This document shows, one piece after another, positions 389 through 25,333 of a stretch of DNA of 41,846 bases (the stretch's first letter is position 1; every line of letters starts with the position of its first letter). The DNA is from a virus. The notes beneath the pieces are model-generated. The model was not told where the DNA came from, searched no databases, and saw only the letters and a list, made by a program, of their open reading frames with translations. Position numbers and translations under genes: made by a program. Location of the stretch: positions 1-41,846 of the IMG/VR virus record IMGVR_UViG_3300037042_003108; one strand, given 5' to 3'.

Positions 389-417
389 TTGCAGGACGAG
401 ACCGAGTGTGGTACGTT
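389..417 (+). promoter_or_regulatory. sigma70-like promoter directly before the structured RNA
   Basis: TTGCAG (389-394), a 17-bp spacer ending TGG, and TACGTT (412-417). The same TACGTT box is used at 5635. The predicted start point about 7 nt downstream is near G424, which is the first base of the long stem of the RNA candidate at 424-576. Confidence 0.5.
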
Positions 418-423
418 GCTCTT

Positions 424-576
424 GACGTGAGCCCGTCAAGGGTTCCGGAGCAGGGTACCAAGGCGGGGAGCAATCCCCCGCCCAACGGCGCTCCCCGCGC
501 GCCTCGACGCCCTAGCGTCGACTCGTTCTCGACCCTGCAACCCGGTTGGGCCCCTTGACGGGCTCTCGTCTATTTT
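424..576 (+). ncRNA. Candidate structured RNA (self-closing stem with internal hairpins)
   Basis: Bases 424-442 pair with 552-570 over 19 positions with a single T-T mismatch (core GAGCCCGTCAAGGG / CCCTTGACGGGCTC). Nested inside are 450-456 with 532-538 (GCAGGGT/ACCCTGC), then two hairpins. The first can form in two exclusive ways: 462-468 with 476-482, or 463-471 with 490-498 (GCGGGGAGC/GCTCCCCGC). The second is 504-510 with 515-521 around loop CCTA. The closing stem is followed by TATTTT (571-576). A promoter ends at 417, so transcription would start at the base of the stem. It may be an independent small RNA, a regulatory leader of the initiator gene at 604, or a DNA-level origin structure. 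No RNA family is recognised. Confidence 0.5.
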
Positions 577-2658: not shown

Positions 2659-4011
2659 ATGCTTGATCTGCTCTTCGTAGCCGCGATCGTCCGTGACGGT
2701 AGGGACGCCGTCTTCGAGGCCATCAAACGTGGCGTAACCGTTGACTATTTGAGCGGCGAGGGCGCGATCGCCTACCAGTTCGTCCTCGACTACGTGAAGC
2801 AGTTCCCGGACGCTCCTGGTGCGGTTGCGGTCGCAGGTTCGACGAACATCACGCTGCCCCCTCCACTGCCCGAGACGTCGGACTACATCATCGAGGAGAT
2901 CAGGAAGCGACGGCTCCACGATGAGCTTGGGAAGTCCCTCAACGCCATCGTCTCTCATCGAGAGCAGCGGCACCCCCTGGAGGCGTACCAGGAGTTCGAG
3001 GAGCAGGTCCGGAGGCTGCGCCTGATGAACCTGGGCGGCACCAGGACGGTGCCCATGATCTCCCTGGCCGACCCCTTCCTCCAGCACTACGCCGATCTGA
3101 AGGCGGGGAAGACGGGCATCCTGACGCCCTGGCCCTCCGTCAACGACGCTACGGTCGGGTTGTGGCCCGAGGACCTGGTGCTCTACGTCGCTCGGCTGGC
3201 GGTCGGGAAGACCTGGATTCTCATCGTCATGGCGAACCACGCCTGGGTGAACGGCCACCGGGTGCTCTTCGTCACGACGGAGATGAGCCAGATTCAGATC
3301 ATGCAGCGGTGGGTTGGAGTCCACTTCAAGCTCCCCTACAACGACCTTCGGAAAGGGCGCCTGGGCGTGTTCCCTGAGCAGGTCATGAGGGATGGTCTCA
3401 CGAAGCTGTCGTCGGATGATCGCCTTCGCATCATCGGTGGGGAGTTCGACTTCCGAATCGAGAGCATTGAGGCTGCGATCGAGGAGTGCCAGCCCGAGGT
3501 CGTCTTCATCGACGGCGCCTACCTGCTGAAGACCCCTGGGGAGGGGCGCATCGAGCGAGCAGCGGCGGTCTTCGACGAGCTGAAGCGGAGCGCGAAGCGG
3601 AATCACCTTCCGGTCGTGACCTCCACGCAGTTCAACAGGCAGATGAAGGTCAACAACGCGAACACGGCCAGTGCGGACAAGATTGCGCTCACCGACAACG
3701 CTGGCTGGAACGCCTCGCTCGTCTACGGGCTCATCAGGACCGAGGACATGGTTAGGGATCGGCGCATCATCCACAGGCCGATCAAGTTCCGCGAGGGCGA
3801 GGGGAGGGACGTCGAGTGCTGGTTCGACTTCGATCGGATGTGCTTCGACGAGCTACCCCAGGGCCCCGCAGGCGCGGGCGCTGGCGTGGGTCCCGCTGGC
3901 GGAGGGCCTGTTGGTGGCGGTGGGGCTCCGGACGACGACCCCTACGGGACGGGGCTCCTCTTCTCGAAGGGGGATGCGGACGGTAAGAACGGCCCAGACG
4001 TGCCGTTCTGA
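2659..4011 (+). CDS. DnaB-type replicative helicase
   Basis: Predicted 450-residue hexameric helicase of the DnaB/gp41 type, which would unwind DNA at the fork using NTP hydrolysis. The N-terminal helical domain covers roughly 1-125 and the RecA-fold core about 150-400. Walker A reads ARLAVGKT (178-185) instead of the usual GxxxxGKT, so its first glycine is replaced by alanine. Walker B is VVFIDGAYLL (281-290), and TSTQFNRQ (321-328) fits the conserved helicase motif ending in QxNR. A Gly/Pro-rich linker (401-430) leads to an acidic C-terminal end, PDVPF, resembling an SSB tip. The ribosome site is weak (GAGGG before ATG). The gene sits between its loader and the primase. Confidence 0.85.
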   Translation: MLDLLFVAAIVRDGRDAVFEAIKRGVTVDYLSGEGAIAYQFVLDYVKQFPDAPGAVAVAGSTNITLPPPLPETSDYIIEEIRKRRLHDELGKSLNAIVSHREQRHPLEAYQEFEEQVRRLRLMNLGGTRTVPMISLADPFLQHYADLKAGKTGILTPWPSVNDATVGLWPEDLVLYVARLAVGKTWILIVMANHAWVNGHRVLFVTTEMSQIQIMQRWVGVHFKLPYNDLRKGRLGVFPEQVMRDGLTKLSSDDRLRIIGGEFDFRIESIEAAIEECQPEVVFIDGAYLLKTPGEGRIERAAAVFDELKRSAKRNHLPVVTSTQFNRQMKVNNANTASADKIALTDNAGWNASLVYGLIRTEDMVRDRRIIHRPIKFREGEGRDVECWFDFDRMCFDELPQGPAGAGAGVGPAGGGPVGGGGAPDDDPYGTGLLFSKGDADGKNGPDVPF

Positions 4012-15147: not shown

Positions 15148-15992
15148 GTGCCGACGCCACAGCGACTCCTTCCTCGCACTTCGAGGAGATCGAGACAGAC
15201 CTCCTGGAGAACAACGCCTGGAACCCAAACGTCATGGCTCAGGGGGAATTCGATCGTCTCGTCGAAGAGATCCAGACCGTGGGGTTCATCGATCCCATTC
15301 AGGTCGTCCCGCTTGGGGGGCCTGAGACCGGGAAGTACCGGATCATCGGAGGAGAGCATCGAGCGGCGGCGGCTCGGGAGCTGAAGCTGCCCAAGGTTCC
15401 TGCGATGGTTCTGGACGGTCCTCGGTGGCAGGACGAGGACCTTCAACAGCTCGTGACCGTCCGGCTGAACGTGCTGCACGGAAAGCTCAACCCCGAGAAG
15501 ATGGCGGTTCTCTATAACCGCATGGCGACGAAGTACGGCGAGGAGGCGCTTCAGAAACTATTCGCGTTCACGGACCAGCACGGTTGGGAGAAGATGCTGT
15601 CCCAGATCAAGCACGGGCTGGTGAAGGCGGGGATACCCAAGGAGAAGCGCAAGGAGTTCGACGAGAAGGCCAAGGAGGCTCGGACGCTCCACGATCTGGA
15701 GCGCATTCTGAACGAGCTGTGGTCGAGCTACGGCGACACCATGAAGCTGTCGTTCATGATCTTCACCTTCGGGAAGCGCGAGCACATCTACATCCAGGCG
15801 GACAAGAAGACGCGGGACGCGATGCGGCGGGTGGCGAGCTACTGCAAGGCCCGCTCGAAGGACATCAACACGGTCCTGGGACCGACCATCATCGCTCTGG
15901 CGGACGTCCTCAAGCAGAAGGAGGCTGAGGAGCAGGCGGCTGGGAAGGAGGTCAAGCCCCCGGGGCCTGAACAGGACGACGTTGAGTTTTGA
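15144..15992 (+). CDS. ParB/Spo0J-like (ParB-Srx fold) protein
   Basis: Predicted 282-residue protein. The N-domain has the ParB arrangement: NAWNPNVM, then EFDRLVEEIQTVGFIDPIQV, then YRIIGGEHRAAAARELK with GGEHR (69-73) in place of the ParB GERR box, and VPAMVL. ParB boxes bind CTP or act as nucleases in different subfamilies, and which applies is unclear. The middle and C-terminal parts are helical and charged; the end is QDDVEF, similar to the acidic tips of the replication proteins. Possible roles are a DNA-sliding clamp, a segregation factor or a nuclease. The stop codon overlaps the promoter for the giant gene. Confidence 0.75.
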   Translation: MSADATATPSSHFEEIETDLLENNAWNPNVMAQGEFDRLVEEIQTVGFIDPIQVVPLGGPETGKYRIIGGEHRAAAARELKLPKVPAMVLDGPRWQDEDLQQLVTVRLNVLHGKLNPEKMAVLYNRMATKYGEEALQKLFAFTDQHGWEKMLSQIKHGLVKAGIPKEKRKEFDEKAKEARTLHDLERILNELWSSYGDTMKLSFMIFTFGKREHIYIQADKKTRDAMRRVASYCKARSKDINTVLGPTIIALADVLKQKEAEEQAAGKEVKPPGPEQDDVEF

Positions 15993-16017
15993 TCCCCTCC
16001 GGTTGTAGAACTAGGGT
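15989..16017 (+). promoter_or_regulatory. sigma70-like promoter of the giant gene
   Basis: TTGATC (15989-15994), 17-bp spacer, TAGGGT (16012-16017), overlapping the ParB-like stop. It is followed by GGAG (16024-16027) and the ATG at 16034, giving a leader of roughly 10 nt. Confidence 0.5.
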
Positions 16018-16033
16018 GGGCCCGGAGACCATC

Positions 16034-19000
16034 ATGATGCAGCAGACCGCGCTACGCTTGACCGAGCAGGACGTCCCGAAGAAGAACATCAACGCCTCGA
16101 AGTTGGTGCCGGTCTTCGACTGGGACGACAAGGTCATCTGGGTATTCGTGAAGCAAGCCGGTGGCGGGGTTCTCGGCCCCGTAGAGGTCGCGCACAGCAA
16201 GATCGACTCCTACGCCGGAAAGCTCTCTTGGCCTTCGCAGGAGATGTGGTACAGCGGCAAGATCGACCCGACCAGCTACTCGGGGCCGCAGGACATCCTT
16301 CCCATCACCTGGACACCTGGGGAGCCCTTCCCGAAGGAGGTTCCCGCGAAGGCCCCCTCGACGTGGGCTGTGAAGATGGTGTTCCAGCCGGTGGCGGCGT
16401 CCCCCGAAGAGGTCGAGATCGCCCACAAGGTGCTGCCGAAGGCGGCGTCGCACGACTTCGAGGGATCCCTGCCCCTCACCCCAGGGGAGCTGGAAGATAC
16501 CGGCAAGACGGACGCGAACGGCTTCCCGGTGTGGAAGGACAAGACGACCGGAGAGAAGTTGTCGCTCCTCCCAGGCGACAAGCTCGCGATCTGGTCTGCG
16601 GCCGAGCACAAGTACCACTACGTCATGAAGACCGAGTCGGGGTGGTCCATCGATTTCACCCTTCCCTTCGCGGCTCCGGAGGACCTGGACGTCGAGAAGA
16701 AGGCGGTGCCGAAGGAGGTTCTGCCCAAGGACTTCGAGCTGCCCCCTGGATACGTCACCACCTACGCTTCTTCCCAGGTGGTGATGGCGAAGACGCCGAA
16801 GGGTACGGCGGTGAAGTGGCTCGACACGACCCACTCGTGGGTGTACATGGACACCCCCTGGCAGGCGCACAACCCGGGTGAGGAGGAGATCGACAAGGCT
16901 GCGAAGGTGGTGGCACCGGAGCCCAAGCCGGTGACGGTGTCGACGACTCCGGTAGCGCCTCAGCCTCCGGTCCCTCCACAGGCGCCTCCGCAGAAGGTCA
17001 TCACGACGGTGGCCCCAGTCTCGAAGGCGCCCCAGGATCAGCCTGATCTGAAGTTGCCCGTAGGCTTCGAGCTACCAGCAGAGCACACGCTCACCAGCAG
17101 CACGCCGAAGGCGGTCTTCGTGAAAACTCCCGGCGGAGTCGCTGTGAAGTGGGTCGTGAAGCTGAGGTCCTGGTGGTACGTGGATCAACCCGGCAAGGAG
17201 TACAGGCCGGGCGAGGGTGGCGTAGGGGCGGTCATCACGCCTCCGGTGCAGTCGGCTCCCCCACCTCCGGTTCCTTCCGCGCCCGAGGTTCACGCGCCGC
17301 CCCCTGCGGCGAAGGTCGAGCCGCCAGCACCCCCTGAGCCCAAGCCCGCCATCATCCAGCCAGGGGCCCCTAAGAACCCGAAGGGTTTCGAGATCATCGG
17401 ACCCCAGAATAAGCATGGGCTGTGGCCTATACAGCACACGGAGACCTACGACGACGGGAACTGGTTCGTGCATCAAGACGGGACGGTCTACCATTTCCAT
17501 CCCGCCGCGATGGACTACAGCACCTGCAAGTACGGTCCGATGGGGTGGATCGAGGACAACAGCGTGCCCCTAGTCTCGGGCGCGTACTTCCAGATGAAGA
17601 AGTTTTACGGGCCGAATCCGAAGATCCCCGAGGGGTTCGTTCACTTCGGCTACGACGTCAACGGCCTCCTCCTGATTCAGAAGGGGTCTGCCCCGCCAGT
17701 CTCGTTGCTTCCGAACGGGTCCAGAGCGTGGTGGTTGGTCAAGGTTCAGCAGTACAAGCTGGAAGACGGCAGCTACCTGAAGCTGGACGACATCCTCGCT
17801 GGGAACTTCGGGAAGGCTGCGAAGGCAGTCACCGTGGCGGACATTCCGGAGGAGCCTCCGCACTGGTTGACCTACGTCGGGGAAGTGGACGCGAACGGGC
17901 TCCCGCTGGTCAACGAGTATTCTGACGATCCGGATGATGATGATCTTCTGAAGCGGCTCACACTTCTCCCGGACGAGCGCGTGGCGAAGTGGACCGGGGC
18001 GAAGTACCAACCGTTCAAGTACGTCGAGGTCACGCACACCATCAAGCCGGACAAGCAATCTTCGCTCCTGACCCCTGATGACGTCCTGGAGATGATGTCG
18101 ACGCTCGGGCTGACGGTGAAGGACGGTCGATACTACAAGGTGCTCGACTCCAACAAGGTCTACGACCCCTCGTTTCCGGCGGGCTTCGAGCCGCTGAATC
18201 CAACGGATGGTGAGGTCGGGCTCGTTCCGGTGCGGCAGGTCTCCACGAACAAGAAGTTCTACATGCTTCCTGGGGACATGGTGGCGAGCGACCTCGACGG
18301 GGATCTCAAGAAGTTCGACGTTTTCGGTGTCACCCAGGACGGTCTCAAGCCGAAGTCCGAGTACCAGGGGTTGGGTTTCGGGCAGATCGCCATGATGACG
18401 AAGGGCCTCGATCCGAACCCGCCCAAGTACACGAGTATCACCAGCAAGACGGACAAGAATGGGTACCTCATGGTCCGGACTCGTCCGTCGGACCCGGATT
18501 CTTCGGACGAGCTTTCCCTCCTTCCGAACGGGGTCGTCGCGAAGTGGGAGCAGTCGAAGAAGAAGTACGTCGTGTGGGAGTGGGACGACGAGTTCAAGGA
18601 CTTCGGTCCGGACGTCACGCGGTCCTACACGCTGAAGCAGGTCCTCACGTTGCAGGCGAAGAAGTTGCCTGGGATGCCGAAGGCTGTTCCAGCGGTGAAG
18701 CCGTCTCAGTCGGTGATGAAGGCGCCCGATCCGACACCGGCTCCTGACTACGCCATGCAGGACACCGGATCTCTGGACGAGAACGGCCACACGATCCAGA
18801 AGCACCTCCTGACTGGGGAGACGTACGTCCTCCTCCCGACGAGCCATCCTGTTCTCGGCATCTGGGTGAGCCAGACGAAGGCGTACAGGATGGTCGACTG
18901 GGACCCCGTAGCGAAGAAGTACAATCTCGCCTGGAAGGATGAGAAGCCAATTTGGTACCTCCCCGGGGACCCGGACGTCTTCGTAGGGGACGTCGAGAAG

Positions 19001-22000
19001 GGCGGGGTGAAGAAGGCCCAGAAGAAGCCTCCGTCAGCCGATCTGACGCCCTCTGACGACCTCGACCCGAACGGGTACAAGCAGAGCTACCACAAGAAGG
19101 GGGGCCCAGCGTCGATGGACCCTCTGATGGGTCCGTTCTCTCACCTTCCTGGTGGAAAGTTGGGGAAGTGGGTTCCGGATCAGCACTTCTATCAGCGAGT
19201 CTCTTTCAACTCCACGACAGGCTTGTACGAACCCCTTGTGGATCCGAAGACAGGGAACCAGGAATGGGTTGTTCCTTCAGGGATGATGAGCACGGTGGGA
19301 TCGGTTCCATTGGGCGTTTTCTTCCCTGGGGAACTCCCCGAAGCCCTGGACAAGCTCGACGTCCCTCTTCATCGGGATGAGAACAACACCTCGGCAGTGA
19401 CTCTACCTAATGGGCTGCTGCTCCGTGTACCGATCACGAACCCCAACGCGATCGAGCTGCTGACGAAGTCTGACAAAGGCTTCACGACTTTCGGGAAGCC
19501 CCTCACCAAGAAGGTGCTGTTGGGCTTGTTGGAGGCGCTCCCACTGAAGGACGCGCAGGCGCTGCACCCGCTCGGGAAGGCGGACCCGAATCAGTTGCCT
19601 CTCTTCGAGCCGAACAACATGCCGGGCATGACGCTCTCGTTACTTCCGAACGGGAAGTACGCTTTCTGGATCTCGCAGGACGCGACGTATGTGAGGTGGA
19701 GCCAGGACGACTATGGGAAGTGGGTTCCAACGCATCCCTGGGAGGTCTTCACGCTGAGTCAGGTCAAGGCCGTGTGGGCGGACGTCTCGGCGGTTGTGGT
19801 ACCTGCGGAGGAGGATGAGAGCAAACTCATGCTCACTTACGAGCTGGACTTGAACGGGATCAAGAGGGTGAGGACCCCCTCGGATCATTATTTCTCCCAG
19901 CTCCCAAGCGGTACGGTTCTGCACTGGAACCCCTACGAGAGCTACTACGAGGTGATGACCTTCTCGACCGAGGAGGGGGCGTGGGTCGTCAAGACCCCGT
20001 TGCAGACCCTGTACCCAGTCGAGGCGAAGCTGGCCTTGTCGAATGACCCCTCGGCCTTGGAGGCGGTTGGGACCAAGGACTCGAACGGCTTCCCTAAGTA
20101 CCAGGGCAAGGACAGCGACGATCGCTTCGTGAAGTTGCCCGACGGGCAGTTCGCCGAGTTCGAGAACTTGAGCGGGAAGTACATTCCCGTGACCTGGGAG
20201 GGGTCTTTCTGGAAGAGGTACTACGACAAGGCGTACACCGCGAATCAGGCTTTGACGCTTGGAAAGACAGTTCCGGAAGCACCTGAGCCGGTCAAGTCGG
20301 CCCCCATGACGGCCGATCCGGTGAAGCCTCCGGACTTCGACAAGGTGACTCCGCCAGGACCTCACGAGGCGGAGTTCGACAAGAACGGTCTGCCGGTGTT
20401 CATGACGGGCCAGGGTCTCAAGCTCTCCTGGCTCCCGAACGGCACGTTCGCCACCTGGGCGGCTGCGGCCAAGAGGTACTCCGTGCGAGAGCTGGTGAAC
20501 GACACCTGGCTCCCCACGCATCCCACCGTGAAGTACACGCTGGACGAGGTCCTGATCATGGTCGAGACGCATGGTCCCTTCGCACCGAATGGGCCGAAGG
20601 CCATGTACAAGGGGAAGAAGGGCCCGATCCCGTTCCTCGGTCACCACGACGACCTCGGGCTCCCCGCGTACGAGTCGCACGACGCCGATGTCGACTTGCA
20701 CCGTCTTCCCGACGGGACGTGGGTTCATTGGAACGACGACACAGGCAAGTACGAGATGGTCGAGCAGCAGGACGACGGCGCCTGGATCTTCCCGACGCCC
20801 ATGAAGTTCTTCACCAAGAAGGACGTCCTCGACATGACCAACCAGGCGGTTCTGTCGAAAGCTCCGCCTGTCCAGACCCAACCACAAATCGTCGAGCCCC
20901 AGTCGAAGCCTTTGTCTCCGGACCATCCGGACATCCTTCCCGACCCGAACGGTCCCGACCCGAACGGGATCAAGACCTACATCCACAAGGACCAGCAGGC
21001 GTCGAAGTTCGCGACTCCCGTGGTCTGGCACCCGGGAAAGAAGGCGTTCTACTGCCTGGTCGGCAAGTCGTACGTCCTCGCGAAGTGGGTCAAGGGCGCT
21101 CAGAAAGGGGACTGGAACTTCTACTTCAACGAGGAGCTGACCCCCGACGAGATGAAGGCTGCGACGGCGGACTCTGACGCGCCTCCGTCCGGATTCGTCC
21201 CGCCTCCAGGGCTTCCGGCAGGAGTCGCGCCGCTGCTCGGTGGTGCTGGTGGGGGGACTCCTCTCAAGGACAAGCACGGGCTCATCTACTACACCAGCGA
21301 GAAGGTTCCTGGCTCACAGGTGCTGCTGCTCCCGAACGGTGAGTTTGTTACGGAGGTCGAGGACGAGCACACAAACATCACCTCCTATGTCGTCGTGAAG
21401 TTGAATAAGTACGGCTACTGGCAAGCCGTCGGCCTCGACCTCGCCATGTCGGGCAAGGAGTATACCCCAGACGAGCTGAAGGCGCTGGTGACCGGTACGG
21501 CTCCTGCGAGCCCTCCATCTCCTGCGGGCTCGACCGTGTCCACGATTGGCGTGTCCGGTCCGGGGTCAGCCTACCTTCCGTACTCCGGTGGTCCGGACGA
21601 GAACGGGTTCCCCCGTTACGTGCATACGGACGCCGATCCAGATACGGACTACCCAGTCACGTTGCTTCCCAACGGCGAGTTCGCGAGATGGCTCGGTCTC
21701 TCGAAGCTGTACCAGGTCATGCGGTGGGATAGCATCCCGCCACCCTCGTGGGAGAAGCTCTACAAGCCCAGCGGTGCGAACGCGGTCCACACGCTGGCCG
21801 AGGTCGAGGCGATGGTGAGCGGGAAGCCCTCGACAGCGACGGCGCCCGATCTTGGGAACCTCGTCCCCATCGACAAGACGGACAAGAACGGTCTCAAGTA
21901 CTATCAGGACAAGAACCACCCATCGTTCAAGCTTTCCCAGATGCCTGACGGGGCTACCTTCGGACACTGGGTCCCGAAGAAGCAGGCGTACCAGAAGATG

Positions 22001-25000
22001 GCGTTGCAGGACGACGGCTCCTGGGAGTCAGCCACCTTCCCGATCACCTTCATCCCACTCTCAGACGTCGAGGCGATGAAGATCGCGATGGGGTATATCG
22101 CCTCTGCGACTCCGCCGTCGACACCTCTGACACTGTCCACGGCTCCCTCCGTGCAGGGGCTGTCTCCGAACCATCCGGACATCGTGAACAGCGGTGAAGT
22201 CTCGAACGACTTCATGCTGTACTACCACAAGCTCAACTCGGACGAGAAGGTTGTGTGGGCTGGCGGGGCGTTCTACTACCCTACGGCGAAGACGTACCAC
22301 AAGTCGGAGTGGTCACCGAAAACGAACGAGTGGATCTTCGTTGGCGAGCTGCCGCTGCTGGTGGGCGAGCTGAAGGCGCTCGACGACAAGGGCGGCTCCG
22401 TCGGGACGTCCGCCTTCGATCCTCTCAGCTCCCTCATGGGGTTGCCTCCGACGCTGAAGGCCCTCACGGAGAATGATCCGAACGGCTACCCGATGGTCGA
22501 GGTCATCGCGGAGCCTGGGAAGAAGCTGACGCGGCTCCCGAACGGGGAGATGGCGAAGTGGGCTGTCTCTCCTCAGAAGTACAGGAAGTACGAGTACGAC
22601 GCCGCAGGAGATTTCTGGTCCTCTTCCGATCCTGCGGTCTGGTGGACGCTGGACCAGGTCAAGGCCATGGATCCCTCGTCTTCTGCGCCCGTGTCTGACG
22701 ACGAGCCCGGGGAAGCCCCCCTGGATGCGTTCGTGGATCCCAACTTCAAGTGGAGTTCAGTTCTAGGCGTTCCGGACATCAAGGACCTCGCCTATGTCGG
22801 GGACGGGGCGGCTCTCGGCTACGCTGGCCTGGGCAAAAAGGACATCTTCGAGGACCCCACCACCAAGCAGCGGTACATCTTCAAGCCCGCGATCCCGAAG
22901 GGCGGGAGCAAGACCGAGCTGTTCCGGGCGCGCGTGCAGGAGGCGTACGCAGCTTTCGCCGTCAAGATCCGACCGGAGCACATCCCCATCAAGACGGTGA
23001 CCTACAACGGTCAGGTCGGAACTCTTCAACCGGAGCTGAAGGTCAAGACGAACACGCTGAAGGGGGTCAAGCCAAAGGATCTCACCCCACAGCAGCGGCA
23101 GGACCTCACCGTCGAGCACCTGCTCGATTGGACCATGTCCCAACACGACACCCACTCGGACAACTTGATCATCACCGAGGATGGGCGGTTGATCTCGGTC
23201 GACAAGGAACAGGGCTTCCGGTACTTCATGAAGAAGGACCACTCCGACAAGCTCTCGGTGGACTACCAGCCTAACGACACGGTTTACACCCCTTATTACA
23301 ACATCTTCTGGAAGGCGTTCGAGAAGGGAGAGTTCGATCTCGATCTGAACGCGATGCGGAATGCCATGCAGAAGATCGAGGCGATCTCTTCGGAAGAGTA
23401 CATGAAGTTGGTTGAGCCCTACGCCGCATCGATTCTCAAGACCAAAGAGGAGCGGGATCGGTTCGTGGAGAAGGCGCTTCTGCGGAAGTTGCACGTCCGA
23501 AAAGACTTTGAGACCTTCTTGACCGATAGATACAGGAAGCGCACAGGGAAGACCAACAAGCGCTTCAGCTTCGAGTCTGGCTGGGCGGGGGAGTGGACTC
23601 CTGGGGCAGTAGCACCCACCACGCAGACGCTTTCCGGGCCCGAGTACGCTGCGCTGAAGAGCATCAAGATCCGGAAGTTCGAGCACCCAACCATCACGAC
23701 AGAGGACCCGACAATCACGACATTGAAGGTGCCTGCCAGCCACTCGATCGACGAGCTGCTCAAGTTCCTTTCGGACCTGGGACTGGAGCAGGTGGAGGTT
23801 GGGGGCATCAAGACCACCACGACCAGCAGCAACCACAAGGTGTGGGTGAAGACGGCGCAGTTTGAAGCTGCGAAGATCGAGGTCGATGTGCCTCCTCCAT
23901 CAAAAGGTGGCACCCCGTTCAAGCCCCTTTACTGGCCTGATTTGCTTGACACCCCCAAGATGGAGGCGAATTCCTCAGAATGGGCGACGATCGGGAAGCC
24001 CGGGGTAAAGGTCGGCTACCTCGGAAAGAAGTTGACGTCGGATGGCGGGATGGTCGAGGGGCAGACGGTTCGAGTGAAGAAGTTCCAGGACGAGAAAGGT
24101 CCCTACCACCTGGTCCACTTCAAGCTCCGGGAGCACCAGTGGTCCGCTCTGGCACACTCGTCCAAGGCTCATGCCTCGGAGTACACCTACTACCGGGCCG
24201 ACTGGGACGGCGCTACAGAGACCTTCACCGAAGAAAGTGCCACATCGATCAAGGTGAAGGCCAAGAGCTGGACTGATGGCGCCGTAGAAGCCAACGTCAT
24301 CACCGATCGCAACCACTGGTCGTACATGGGCAGTGTGTACATGAAGGTCAGATCTAACGATGTGGCGGGATCTGTGAAGGCGGCTCTGGATGCGGTGAAG
24401 AAGGGGTTCTCCAAGGAGGTGTTCCGGGATCCAACCCCGAAGGAGTTGGAGGTTTACAAGCTGAGTCAGCTCCTGTGGTACTTCGCCCCGCAGATCGCGG
24501 ATGCCCTTCCGGCCGAGCCAGATCGGACGGTGGAGGATCTGAAGTCGAAGTTGGCTGCGGTGCCTGGGTTCGACATGGGTTGGATTGACAAGACGGAGTA
24601 CCAAGACACCTTCGAGGGGGTGTCGTCGTTCGTACTTCCAGGGCTCTGGAAGATGATGGCCCAGGGAAAGCTCAAGTTCGTGTTCAACGGAATTTCGAGT
24701 CTCAACGCCGCCGTGAACATCTGCTCCGGGAACGGGCTCATGGGCATCCACGAGAGGGCTCTGTCCGGGATCGGTCCGACGAGCTACTCATCAGGCGGGG
24801 GGTCGCCTGGTCAGGACATCTACTCTGGGAGTGGGGATCAAATTCTGACTCGTATGGTGTACTTCCCGGCAGCGTCGTCGCATGGTTTCTCCTCGCACTC
24901 ATTCGATGGGGCGTATCAAGCCATTCTGCACCCCTCTGTGCTCGATCGCCTGGACACGTACATGCACACTTCGGATAACTACGGGTATTGTCGACCAGAT

Positions 25001-25333
25001 CACCCCTCATTCCATTCGGCAGCTCCGGATGGGAGCTACACTTGGAAGAGCAGGTCTTCGGTGTTGAAGACCTCGGAGTCGATTCAGAACAGCTACCACA
25101 CCGGGAATGAGATTGGGTTTCGTAAAGGGGTGTCCTCGAAGAAGATCATCAGGCTCGCAACGCAATCCGAGACCTCCAACTATAGCGGCCATCCCGGGCG
25201 AAAAGAGTTCATCGACGCCATGCGAAGCAAGGGATTCGAGGAGGTGAACGGAGTTCCTCTGGAGGACTTCGTTGTGGTCGTGAACAATCTCCAAGAGGCG
25301 TACGATAAGTACGTGAAGCCTCTGGGGATCTGA
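16034..25333 (+). CDS. Giant 3099-residue repeat protein with kinase-like domain
   Basis: Single uninterrupted reading frame; ATG 16034 follows GGAG at 6 nt, although an in-frame TTG lies at 15989. Residues about 150-2225 hold roughly 20 degenerate repeats of 70-110 residues, each with a 'DxNGxP', an 'LLPNGxxAxW' and a final 'YTLxxVxxM', joined by Pro-rich linkers. About 2240-2520 is a protein-kinase-like domain of HipA/phosphoinositide-kinase style: FKP lysine K2284, helix glutamate E2303, catalytic HDTHSDN (D2372, N2377) and metal-site D2390. The last 500 residues are unclassified (HPSVLDRLD at 2966, NEIGFRKG at 3025). It is likely a multi-domain effector, perhaps ejected with DNA or acting in the host cell. 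It has its own promoter. Confidence 0.75.
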   Translation: MMQQTALRLTEQDVPKKNINASKLVPVFDWDDKVIWVFVKQAGGGVLGPVEVAHSKIDSYAGKLSWPSQEMWYSGKIDPTSYSGPQDILPITWTPGEPFPKEVPAKAPSTWAVKMVFQPVAASPEEVEIAHKVLPKAASHDFEGSLPLTPGELEDTGKTDANGFPVWKDKTTGEKLSLLPGDKLAIWSAAEHKYHYVMKTESGWSIDFTLPFAAPEDLDVEKKAVPKEVLPKDFELPPGYVTTYASSQVVMAKTPKGTAVKWLDTTHSWVYMDTPWQAHNPGEEEIDKAAKVVAPEPKPVTVSTTPVAPQPPVPPQAPPQKVITTVAPVSKAPQDQPDLKLPVGFELPAEHTLTSSTPKAVFVKTPGGVAVKWVVKLRSWWYVDQPGKEYRPGEGGVGAVITPPVQSAPPPPVPSAPEVHAPPPAAKVEPPAPPEPKPAIIQPGAPKNPKGFEIIGPQNKHGLWPIQHTETYDDGNWFVHQDGTVYHFHPAAMDYSTCKYGPMGWIEDNSVPLVSGAYFQMKKFYGPNPKIPEGFVHFGYDVNGLLLIQKGSAPPVSLLPNGSRAWWLVKVQQYKLEDGSYLKLDDILAGNFGKAAKAVTVADIPEEPPHWLTYVGEVDANGLPLVNEYSDDPDDDDLLKRLTLLPDERVAKWTGAKYQPFKYVEVTHTIKPDKQSSLLTPDDVLEMMSTLGLTVKDGRYYKVLDSNKVYDPSFPAGFEPLNPTDGEVGLVPVRQVSTNKKFYMLPGDMVASDLDGDLKKFDVFGVTQDGLKPKSEYQGLGFGQIAMMTKGLDPNPPKYTSITSKTDKNGYLMVRTRPSDPDSSDELSLLPNGVVAKWEQSKKKYVVWEWDDEFKDFGPDVTRSYTLKQVLTLQAKKLPGMPKAVPAVKPSQSVMKAPDPTPAPDYAMQDTGSLDENGHTIQKHLLTGETYVLLPTSHPVLGIWVSQTKAYRMVDWDPVAKKYNLAWKDEKPIWYLPGDPDVFVGDVEKGGVKKAQKKPPSADLTPSDDLDPNGYKQSYHKKGGPASMDPLMGPFSHLPGGKLGKWVPDQHFYQRVSFNSTTGLYEPLVDPKTGNQEWVVPSGMMSTVGSVPLGVFFPGELPEALDKLDVPLHRDENNTSAVTLPNGLLLRVPITNPNAIELLTKSDKGFTTFGKPLTKKVLLGLLEALPLKDAQALHPLGKADPNQLPLFEPNNMPGMTLSLLPNGKYAFWISQDATYVRWSQDDYGKWVPTHPWEVFTLSQVKAVWADVSAVVVPAEEDESKLMLTYELDLNGIKRVRTPSDHYFSQLPSGTVLHWNPYESYYEVMTFSTEEGAWVVKTPLQTLYPVEAKLALSNDPSALEAVGTKDSNGFPKYQGKDSDDRFVKLPDGQFAEFENLSGKYIPVTWEGSFWKRYYDKAYTANQALTLGKTVPEAPEPVKSAPMTADPVKPPDFDKVTPPGPHEAEFDKNGLPVFMTGQGLKLSWLPNGTFATWAAAAKRYSVRELVNDTWLPTHPTVKYTLDEVLIMVETHGPFAPNGPKAMYKGKKGPIPFLGHHDDLGLPAYESHDADVDLHRLPDGTWVHWNDDTGKYEMVEQQDDGAWIFPTPMKFFTKKDVLDMTNQAVLSKAPPVQTQPQIVEPQSKPLSPDHPDILPDPNGPDPNGIKTYIHKDQQASKFATPVVWHPGKKAFYCLVGKSYVLAKWVKGAQKGDWNFYFNEELTPDEMKAATADSDAPPSGFVPPPGLPAGVAPLLGGAGGGTPLKDKHGLIYYTSEKVPGSQVLLLPNGEFVTEVEDEHTNITSYVVVKLNKYGYWQAVGLDLAMSGKEYTPDELKALVTGTAPASPPSPAGSTVSTIGVSGPGSAYLPYSGGPDENGFPRYVHTDADPDTDYPVTLLPNGEFARWLGLSKLYQVMRWDSIPPPSWEKLYKPSGANAVHTLAEVEAMVSGKPSTATAPDLGNLVPIDKTDKNGLKYYQDKNHPSFKLSQMPDGATFGHWVPKKQAYQKMALQDDGSWESATFPITFIPLSDVEAMKIAMGYIASATPPSTPLTLSTAPSVQGLSPNHPDIVNSGEVSNDFMLYYHKLNSDEKVVWAGGAFYYPTAKTYHKSEWSPKTNEWIFVGELPLLVGELKALDDKGGSVGTSAFDPLSSLMGLPPTLKALTENDPNGYPMVEVIAEPGKKLTRLPNGEMAKWAVSPQKYRKYEYDAAGDFWSSSDPAVWWTLDQVKAMDPSSSAPVSDDEPGEAPLDAFVDPNFKWSSVLGVPDIKDLAYVGDGAALGYAGLGKKDIFEDPTTKQRYIFKPAIPKGGSKTELFRARVQEAYAAFAVKIRPEHIPIKTVTYNGQVGTLQPELKVKTNTLKGVKPKDLTPQQRQDLTVEHLLDWTMSQHDTHSDNLIITEDGRLISVDKEQGFRYFMKKDHSDKLSVDYQPNDTVYTPYYNIFWKAFEKGEFDLDLNAMRNAMQKIEAISSEEYMKLVEPYAASILKTKEERDRFVEKALLRKLHVRKDFETFLTDRYRKRTGKTNKRFSFESGWAGEWTPGAVAPTTQTLSGPEYAALKSIKIRKFEHPTITTEDPTITTLKVPASHSIDELLKFLSDLGLEQVEVGGIKTTTTSSNHKVWVKTAQFEAAKIEVDVPPPSKGGTPFKPLYWPDLLDTPKMEANSSEWATIGKPGVKVGYLGKKLTSDGGMVEGQTVRVKKFQDEKGPYHLVHFKLREHQWSALAHSSKAHASEYTYYRADWDGATETFTEESATSIKVKAKSWTDGAVEANVITDRNHWSYMGSVYMKVRSNDVAGSVKAALDAVKKGFSKEVFRDPTPKELEVYKLSQLLWYFAPQIADALPAEPDRTVEDLKSKLAAVPGFDMGWIDKTEYQDTFEGVSSFVLPGLWKMMAQGKLKFVFNGISSLNAAVNICSGNGLMGIHERALSGIGPTSYSSGGGSPGQDIYSGSGDQILTRMVYFPAASSHGFSSHSFDGAYQAILHPSVLDRLDTYMHTSDNYGYCRPDHPSFHSAAPDGSYTWKSRSSVLKTSESIQNSYHTGNEIGFRKGVSSKKIIRLATQSETSNYSGHPGRKEFIDAMRSKGFEEVNGVPLEDFVVVVNNLQEAYDKYVKPLGI
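16498..22670 (+). repeat. About 20 degenerate protein-coding repeats
   Basis: Repeats are visible at protein level only; DNA similarity is low, so they are old duplications. Good examples lie near 18440-18650, 20350-20570, 20640-20850, 21590-21820 and 22470-22670, each holding the 'LPNG/LPDG' core and a downstream Trp/Tyr strand. Confidence 0.7.

Follow-up and report, generated by a model that had tools for sequence, protein, structure and literature searches.

In the satellite phage P4, an RNA derived from the leader of the replication genes, the cI RNA, pairs with one site upstream of itself (seqA) and one downstream (seqC) and terminates the replication transcript; it is reported to arise by processing (PMC4825925). 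The put RNA of phage HK022, about 70 nt long and located downstream of an early promoter, folds into two stem-loops and acts without protein factors (PMC9378689). A single promoter region of the Gifsy-1 prophage gives rise both to a short, terminator-ended RNA, IsrK, and to a read-through mRNA (PMC4825925), and the target of gp32 in T4 and RB69 is a leader pseudoknot of diverged sequence but similar structure (PMC535899). We used these four as working analogues of the phage leader described here, without claiming membership for it in any of them; by analogy, the P4 cI and HK022 put RNAs appear to be the nearest in function.

The leader consists of a 5′ hairpin, HA, followed by a larger structured RNA, R. 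As in P4, an RNA within a replication-gene leader has a motif whose complement lies farther upstream in that leader, but here the partner is a hairpin loop, the site is a bulge beside a long closing stem, R has in the window's subgroup a promoter-like element and a terminator-like end of its own, and neither a downstream seqC nor homology at the Rfam level was found. The leader shares with HK022 put a structured phage RNA downstream of an early promoter, but in place of two stem-loops in about 70 nt it has a predicted pseudoknot with a long closed stem, made of HA plus an R of 74 to 147 nt. With T4 gene 32 it has in common a pseudoknot in a phage replication-gene leader, with structure kept while sequence changes (PMC535899); the T4 pseudoknot, however, measures about 28 nt and lies next to the ribosome-binding region, whereas ours would occupy 100 to 200 nt and leaves the ribosome-binding site outside; in the window, 23 nt separate the end of R from the Shine-Dalgarno sequence. 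That one promoter region would yield both a short terminator-ended RNA and a read-through mRNA recalls IsrK (PMC4825925), but the genes are others and HA is not part of the transcript from the inner promoter, P_B.

The window, by which we mean the whole stretch analyzed, is a virus fragment of 41,846 bases with about 62% G+C (IMGVR_UViG_3300037042_003108), and its recognized genes all lie on the + strand. An open reading frame that is the 3′ end of an upstream gene (7 to 324, +), with a homologue at the same place in L040, L041, L043, and L045, precedes the leader. The leader is followed by the Shine-Dalgarno sequence GGAGG (594 to 598, +) and the first operon gene (604 to 1995, +), a probable replication initiator of 463 aa whose homologues have winged-HTH matches, and then by genes for a DnaC-like helicase loader (2017 to 2637, +) and a DnaB-like helicase (2659 to 4011, +). 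After these come a primase, a helicase, a UvsX-like recombinase, an exonuclease, and a RuvC-like resolvase; further genes encode a ParB-like nuclease, a DNA polymerase, and a thymidylate synthase, and the last group comprises terminase, portal, protease, and T4-like major head protein. An open frame of 3,114 residues inside the replication region (15989 to 25333) had no Pfam match at an E value of 0.01. An additional open frame separates R from the initiator gene in some relatives (L043, 1317 to 1517; L045, 1062 to 1517). The initiator is a fast-changing protein, its homologues being 27 to 38% identical to that of the window. No close relative of the window was found among 50,697 annotated phage records, Blast searches of known phages with the region and the first gene returned nothing useful, and the initiators of L209 and L200 had no matches there. 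Searches of GTDB genomes with DnaB and capsid proteins also yielded no relatives that would point to a host.

R (424 to 570, +) is defined by its fold, covariation, and relatives. Its closing stem, P1, pairs 424 to 442 with 552 to 570, and the 95% complementarity of the two arms bears out the 18 of 19 pairs counted in a preliminary description of this DNA. Within P1, the minimum free energy (MFE) fold and covariation place P1b (445 to 448 with 542 to 545), P2 (450 to 456 with 532 to 538), and the hairpins H1 (462 to 482), H2 (487 to 503), and H3 (504 to 521), all on the + strand. The MFE of R in the window is −91.8 kcal/mol (z = −7.53), a value reached by none of 200 shuffled sequences, and the z scores of ten relatives range from −4.8 to −10.0. 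R varies in length from 74 to 147 nt and P1 from 17 to 27 pairs, while the apical part ranges from one hairpin (L200, 74 nt) to three (the window, 147 nt); given this variability, the common core comprises HA, P1, and the loop-bulge contact described below. A two-way switch between 462-468/476-482 and 463-471/490-498 had also been proposed. Both pairings can form, but only the first is kept in relatives; the alternative hairpin pairs in 56% of alignment cells versus 53% in shuffles and was rejected as specific to the window.

To obtain relatives, 38 related contigs were fetched by their head protein, and a homologue of the first gene is present in eight of them. The window and five relatives were used to build a covariance model, which located the element directly 5′ of the first gene in those six genomes. 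Among loci retrieved through their helicase, the model gave weaker matches to L200 (E = 1.5e-6) and L208 (E = 4e-4). With the near-identical records G011 and G012 counted once, the elements number 11, the four closest being similar in sequence and not fully independent. In every case the initiator and DnaC genes follow the element directly and share its strand. The regions scanned in L193, L194, L199, L202, L204, L205, L207, L210, and other DnaC/DnaB loci held no element, and DNA-pattern searches of viral contigs added no members. In the structure alignment, 94% of cells were paired, compared with 37 to 46% when the partners were slid. The preliminary description had named compensatory stem changes in related phages as a check, and these are present: 19 of 46 pairs changed on both sides versus 7.3 in shuffles (11 in P1 alone), in an alignment that was fitted to the structure and so flatters the count, although an earlier MAFFT alignment had already given 17 such pairs. 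Fold z scores, covariation, and position in relatives thus agree on a self-closing structured RNA ahead of the replication genes.

The same description had recognized no known class, and no match in the window reached an Rfam gathering threshold; the leaders of four relatives had no Rfam match at an E value of up to 1. One candidate, VA RNA (RF00102), scored 27.8 bits (E = 0.01) in the window against a gathering score of 62 and nothing in the four relatives, and was set aside as a lookalike in outline only. The loose analogy once drawn to 6S RNA, which likewise has paired ends and a length of about 150 nt, proved unnecessary: the Rfam 6S models were unmatched, and R differs in its multibranched interior, its docking bulge, and its partner hairpin. 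Inspection of the 11 elements revealed no shared motif of the kind that forms a conserved aptamer core in riboswitches.

HA (366 to 388, +) has a stem of 366 to 373 with 381 to 388 and the loop AGCCCAA. Its loop segment X, GCCCAAC (375 to 381, +), is the exact complement of X′, GTTGGGC (545 to 551, +), which occupies a bulge on the 3′ side of R (546 to 551) abutting the 3′ strand of P1. HA lies outside the interval covered earlier (389 to 576); this hairpin and its match to R, the main finding here, had been missed, as had the outer promoter, P_A. Every genome with the element has a hairpin of the HA type between P_A and R, in most elements near the predicted 5′ end of the P_A transcript. The loop-bulge complement is found in all 11 elements, with 5 to 11 nt of exact match and at least 7 nt in ten of them; the shortest, of 5 nt, is that of L041, and L047 has a weak HA stem. 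The letters of X and X′ differ wholly between lineages while their mutual match is kept, as in GGTGCCCACCC/GGGTGGGCACC (L047), AGGCGGC/GCCGCCT (L200), GAGCGCGT/ACGCGCTC (L208), CGTAAAC/GTTTACG (L192), CTAAGCC/GGCTTAG (L211), and TCGATTC/GAATCGA (L209). X′ lies immediately next to the P1 3′ strand, and the complement takes in 1 to 4 nt of that strand in several lineages. Because the order X, P1-5′, X′, P1-3′ crosses, HA and R together would form a pseudoknot, and the conserved match implies that R acts jointly with sequence lying 5′ of P_B.

The complementarity test was devised after the pattern had been seen; the permutation test and the architecture scan cover all elements by fixed rules. When loops and bulges of seven families were mismatched, the complement averaged 3.05 nt, and the seven loops can be assigned to the bulges in 5,040 ways, of which the true pairing alone attained the observed sum. 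The X-X′ duplex energy averaged −13.1 kcal/mol for own partners versus −3.2 kcal/mol across families. In the architecture scan, which required a P1 of at least 15 bp and covered 2.5 Mb, every match with an X of at least 7 nt lay at this leader, and shuffled leaders gave none in 3,300; the scan recovered 8 of the 11 elements, L040, L041, and L047 falling below the thresholds for hairpin stem or complement length. A looser scan of a further 1.7 Mb (seven further records from relatives, including two of about 200 kb, together with portions of four known phages) returned four coincidences, none before an initiator gene.

The exact heptamer GCCCAAC occurs on the + strand of the window at 375, 480, and 27846 only. 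The copy at 480 to 486 follows H1 inside R and has counterparts at the same place in L040, L041, and L045; judging by its sequence, this copy could rival the HA loop as partner of the bulge in the window's subgroup. An internal pseudoknot between 480 to 486 and X′ is complementary in the closest genomes but overlaps H1, and no such site was recognized in distant elements. We also considered whether X′ might be a seed that pairs elsewhere in the window, but 7 sites against 4.6 expected is not an enrichment.

P_A is a promoter of the sigma-70 type, TTGACC-N16-TAGGAT (321 to 348, +; TTGACC at 321 to 326, TAGGAT at 343 to 348). TTGAC(C/T) lies 104 to 124 nt upstream of R in 7/7 genomes of the window's subgroup, and TTGAC is also found upstream of the element in L192, L208, L209, and L211. 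The stop codon of the upstream gene (322 to 324) falls within the P_A −35 box, an overlap seen in several relatives as well. P_B has the extended −10 element TGGTACGTT (409 to 417, +) and a weak −35, TTGCAG (389 to 394). Both hexamers of the promoter first proposed here, TTGCAG-N17-TACGTT, are present (389 to 394 and 412 to 417), but its −35 is not kept in relatives, the extended −10 being better conserved. A TGNTANNNT box ends 6 to 7 nt 5′ of R in all seven subgroup genomes and is absent from all four more distant ones; this spacing would place the first base of R at or next to the transcription start. The TATTTT noted after the stem is also there (571 to 576, +), a terminator-like T-rich tract whose counterparts follow P1 in relatives. 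Such a tract lies 3′ of R throughout the subgroup (7/7) and not in the other four genomes; those of the window and L047 (TTTAT) are weak, that of L047 the weakest. In the window's subgroup R is, by its sequence, laid out as a promoter-to-terminator small RNA.

Sequence comparison establishes HA plus R as a conserved two-part RNA leader of the predicted initiator-DnaC-DnaB operon. We propose that this leader, HA (366 to 388) with R (424 to 570), would be the 5′ RNA of the early operon, in which X in the HA loop pairs with X′ in the bulge of R and HA is docked at the inner end of P1, whether in cis, within a P_A transcript, or in trans, through the small RNA. Within the window's subgroup, R would run from the P_B start to the T-rich tract, and many transcripts probably end there as a stable RNA of about 150 nt. 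In the window the tract and the first ribosome-binding site are only about 17 nt apart, which leaves no room for a promoter. Polymerase would therefore have to read through to reach the operon, and the extent of read-through is likely set by HA docking, toward either more or less termination. The position of the ribosome-binding site outside the structure speaks against a simple translation block, and, as four lineages have HA and R without a T-rich tract, termination cannot be the sole shared function. On balance, we lean toward a pseudoknotted two-part leader that regulates the amount of transcription entering the replication genes. For R itself, a small RNA or an attenuating leader, the two options named at the outset, remain the right pair.

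The same contact might instead be used in trans, as by P4 cI RNA, which acts on transcription ahead of the replication genes (PMC4825925), a role we infer here by likeness. R made from P_B would then use X′ to pair with the HA loop in newly made P_A leaders and cause their premature termination, as a self-limiting or immunity device. The match of a motif inside R to an upstream hairpin loop of the same leader and the promoter-to-terminator layout in all seven subgroup genomes would fit. We nevertheless consider this doubtful, as a separate promoter and a T-rich tract are both absent from four lineages, HA lies just 10 to 18 nt from R, which favors pairing in cis, and no downstream counterpart of seqC was found, the + strand heptamer occurring in or near the leader at 375 and 480 only.

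A put-like element, in which the HA-R pseudoknot binds RNA polymerase and brings about read-through of terminators, including the T-rich tract, along the long operon, would explain why HA and R are kept where no terminator follows and why a terminator-like tract sits ahead of an operon; the element is also placed suitably, just 3′ of the upstream promoter and ahead of many same-strand genes. Since the elements have no sequence motif in common and the size differs (R alone is 74 to 147 nt long), we regard processive antitermination of this kind as improbable. Lower still we place an autoregulatory site like that of T4 gene 32, at which the initiator or another replication protein would bind the pseudoknot and repress its own mRNA. 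The precedent of a leader pseudoknot with diverged sequence and similar structure (PMC535899) suits it, and fast change of the RNA could track the fast-changing initiator, but the ribosome-binding site lies outside the structure and this reading gives no reason for P_B or the T-rich tract.

That the long stem serves as a passive 5′ stabilizer or an RNase III processing signal is very unlikely: a P1 of 17 to 27 pairs and an HA near the 5′ end of most P_A transcripts would suit such a role, but it leaves loop-bulge complementarity through complete sequence change unexplained. A DNA-level origin or operator with cruciform potential, suggested by the inverted repeats and their position upstream of replication genes, is scarcely credible, because + strand G-U pairs in P1 and the next helix and covariance-model scores that are much lower on the opposite strand favor a + strand RNA, the promoter and T-rich tract share that strand, and X and X′ always fall in loop and bulge.

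Returning to the two-part leader that gates transcription, the retention of shape and loop-bulge match despite completely changed letters suggests a new RNA control element in a little-known group of large phages; the literature compared consisted of open-licence papers, and an earlier description is possible. It is plausible, though we would not yet bet on it, that the elements form a class defined by geometry, in which a 5′ hairpin docks in a bulge by a long closing stem and gates RNA polymerase into the operon, and which one lineage has made into a free-standing small RNA, running from promoter to terminator, that can act in trans on its own leader. Because the sequence changes completely, a covariance model of one lineage reaches the others only weakly or not at all; the element was found by a geometry scan. 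If early replication genes are gated in this way, an RNA-centered switch would be added to environmental phages with T4-like capsid proteins, and the set of elements would offer a natural series from leader element to free-standing small RNA.

Two minor observations concern individual relatives. In L046 (1 to 78), the leader of G005 is truncated and contains a short hairpin (AGCCCACG / CGTGTGGGCT) ahead of the gene, possibly the end of a different version of the element. An intein with a LAGLIDADG domain is present in the DnaB gene of L209 (4171 to 6780), and DnaB frames of similar length, 849 to 858 aa, in L210 and in L090, the contig that holds L211, suggest a putative intein there too.
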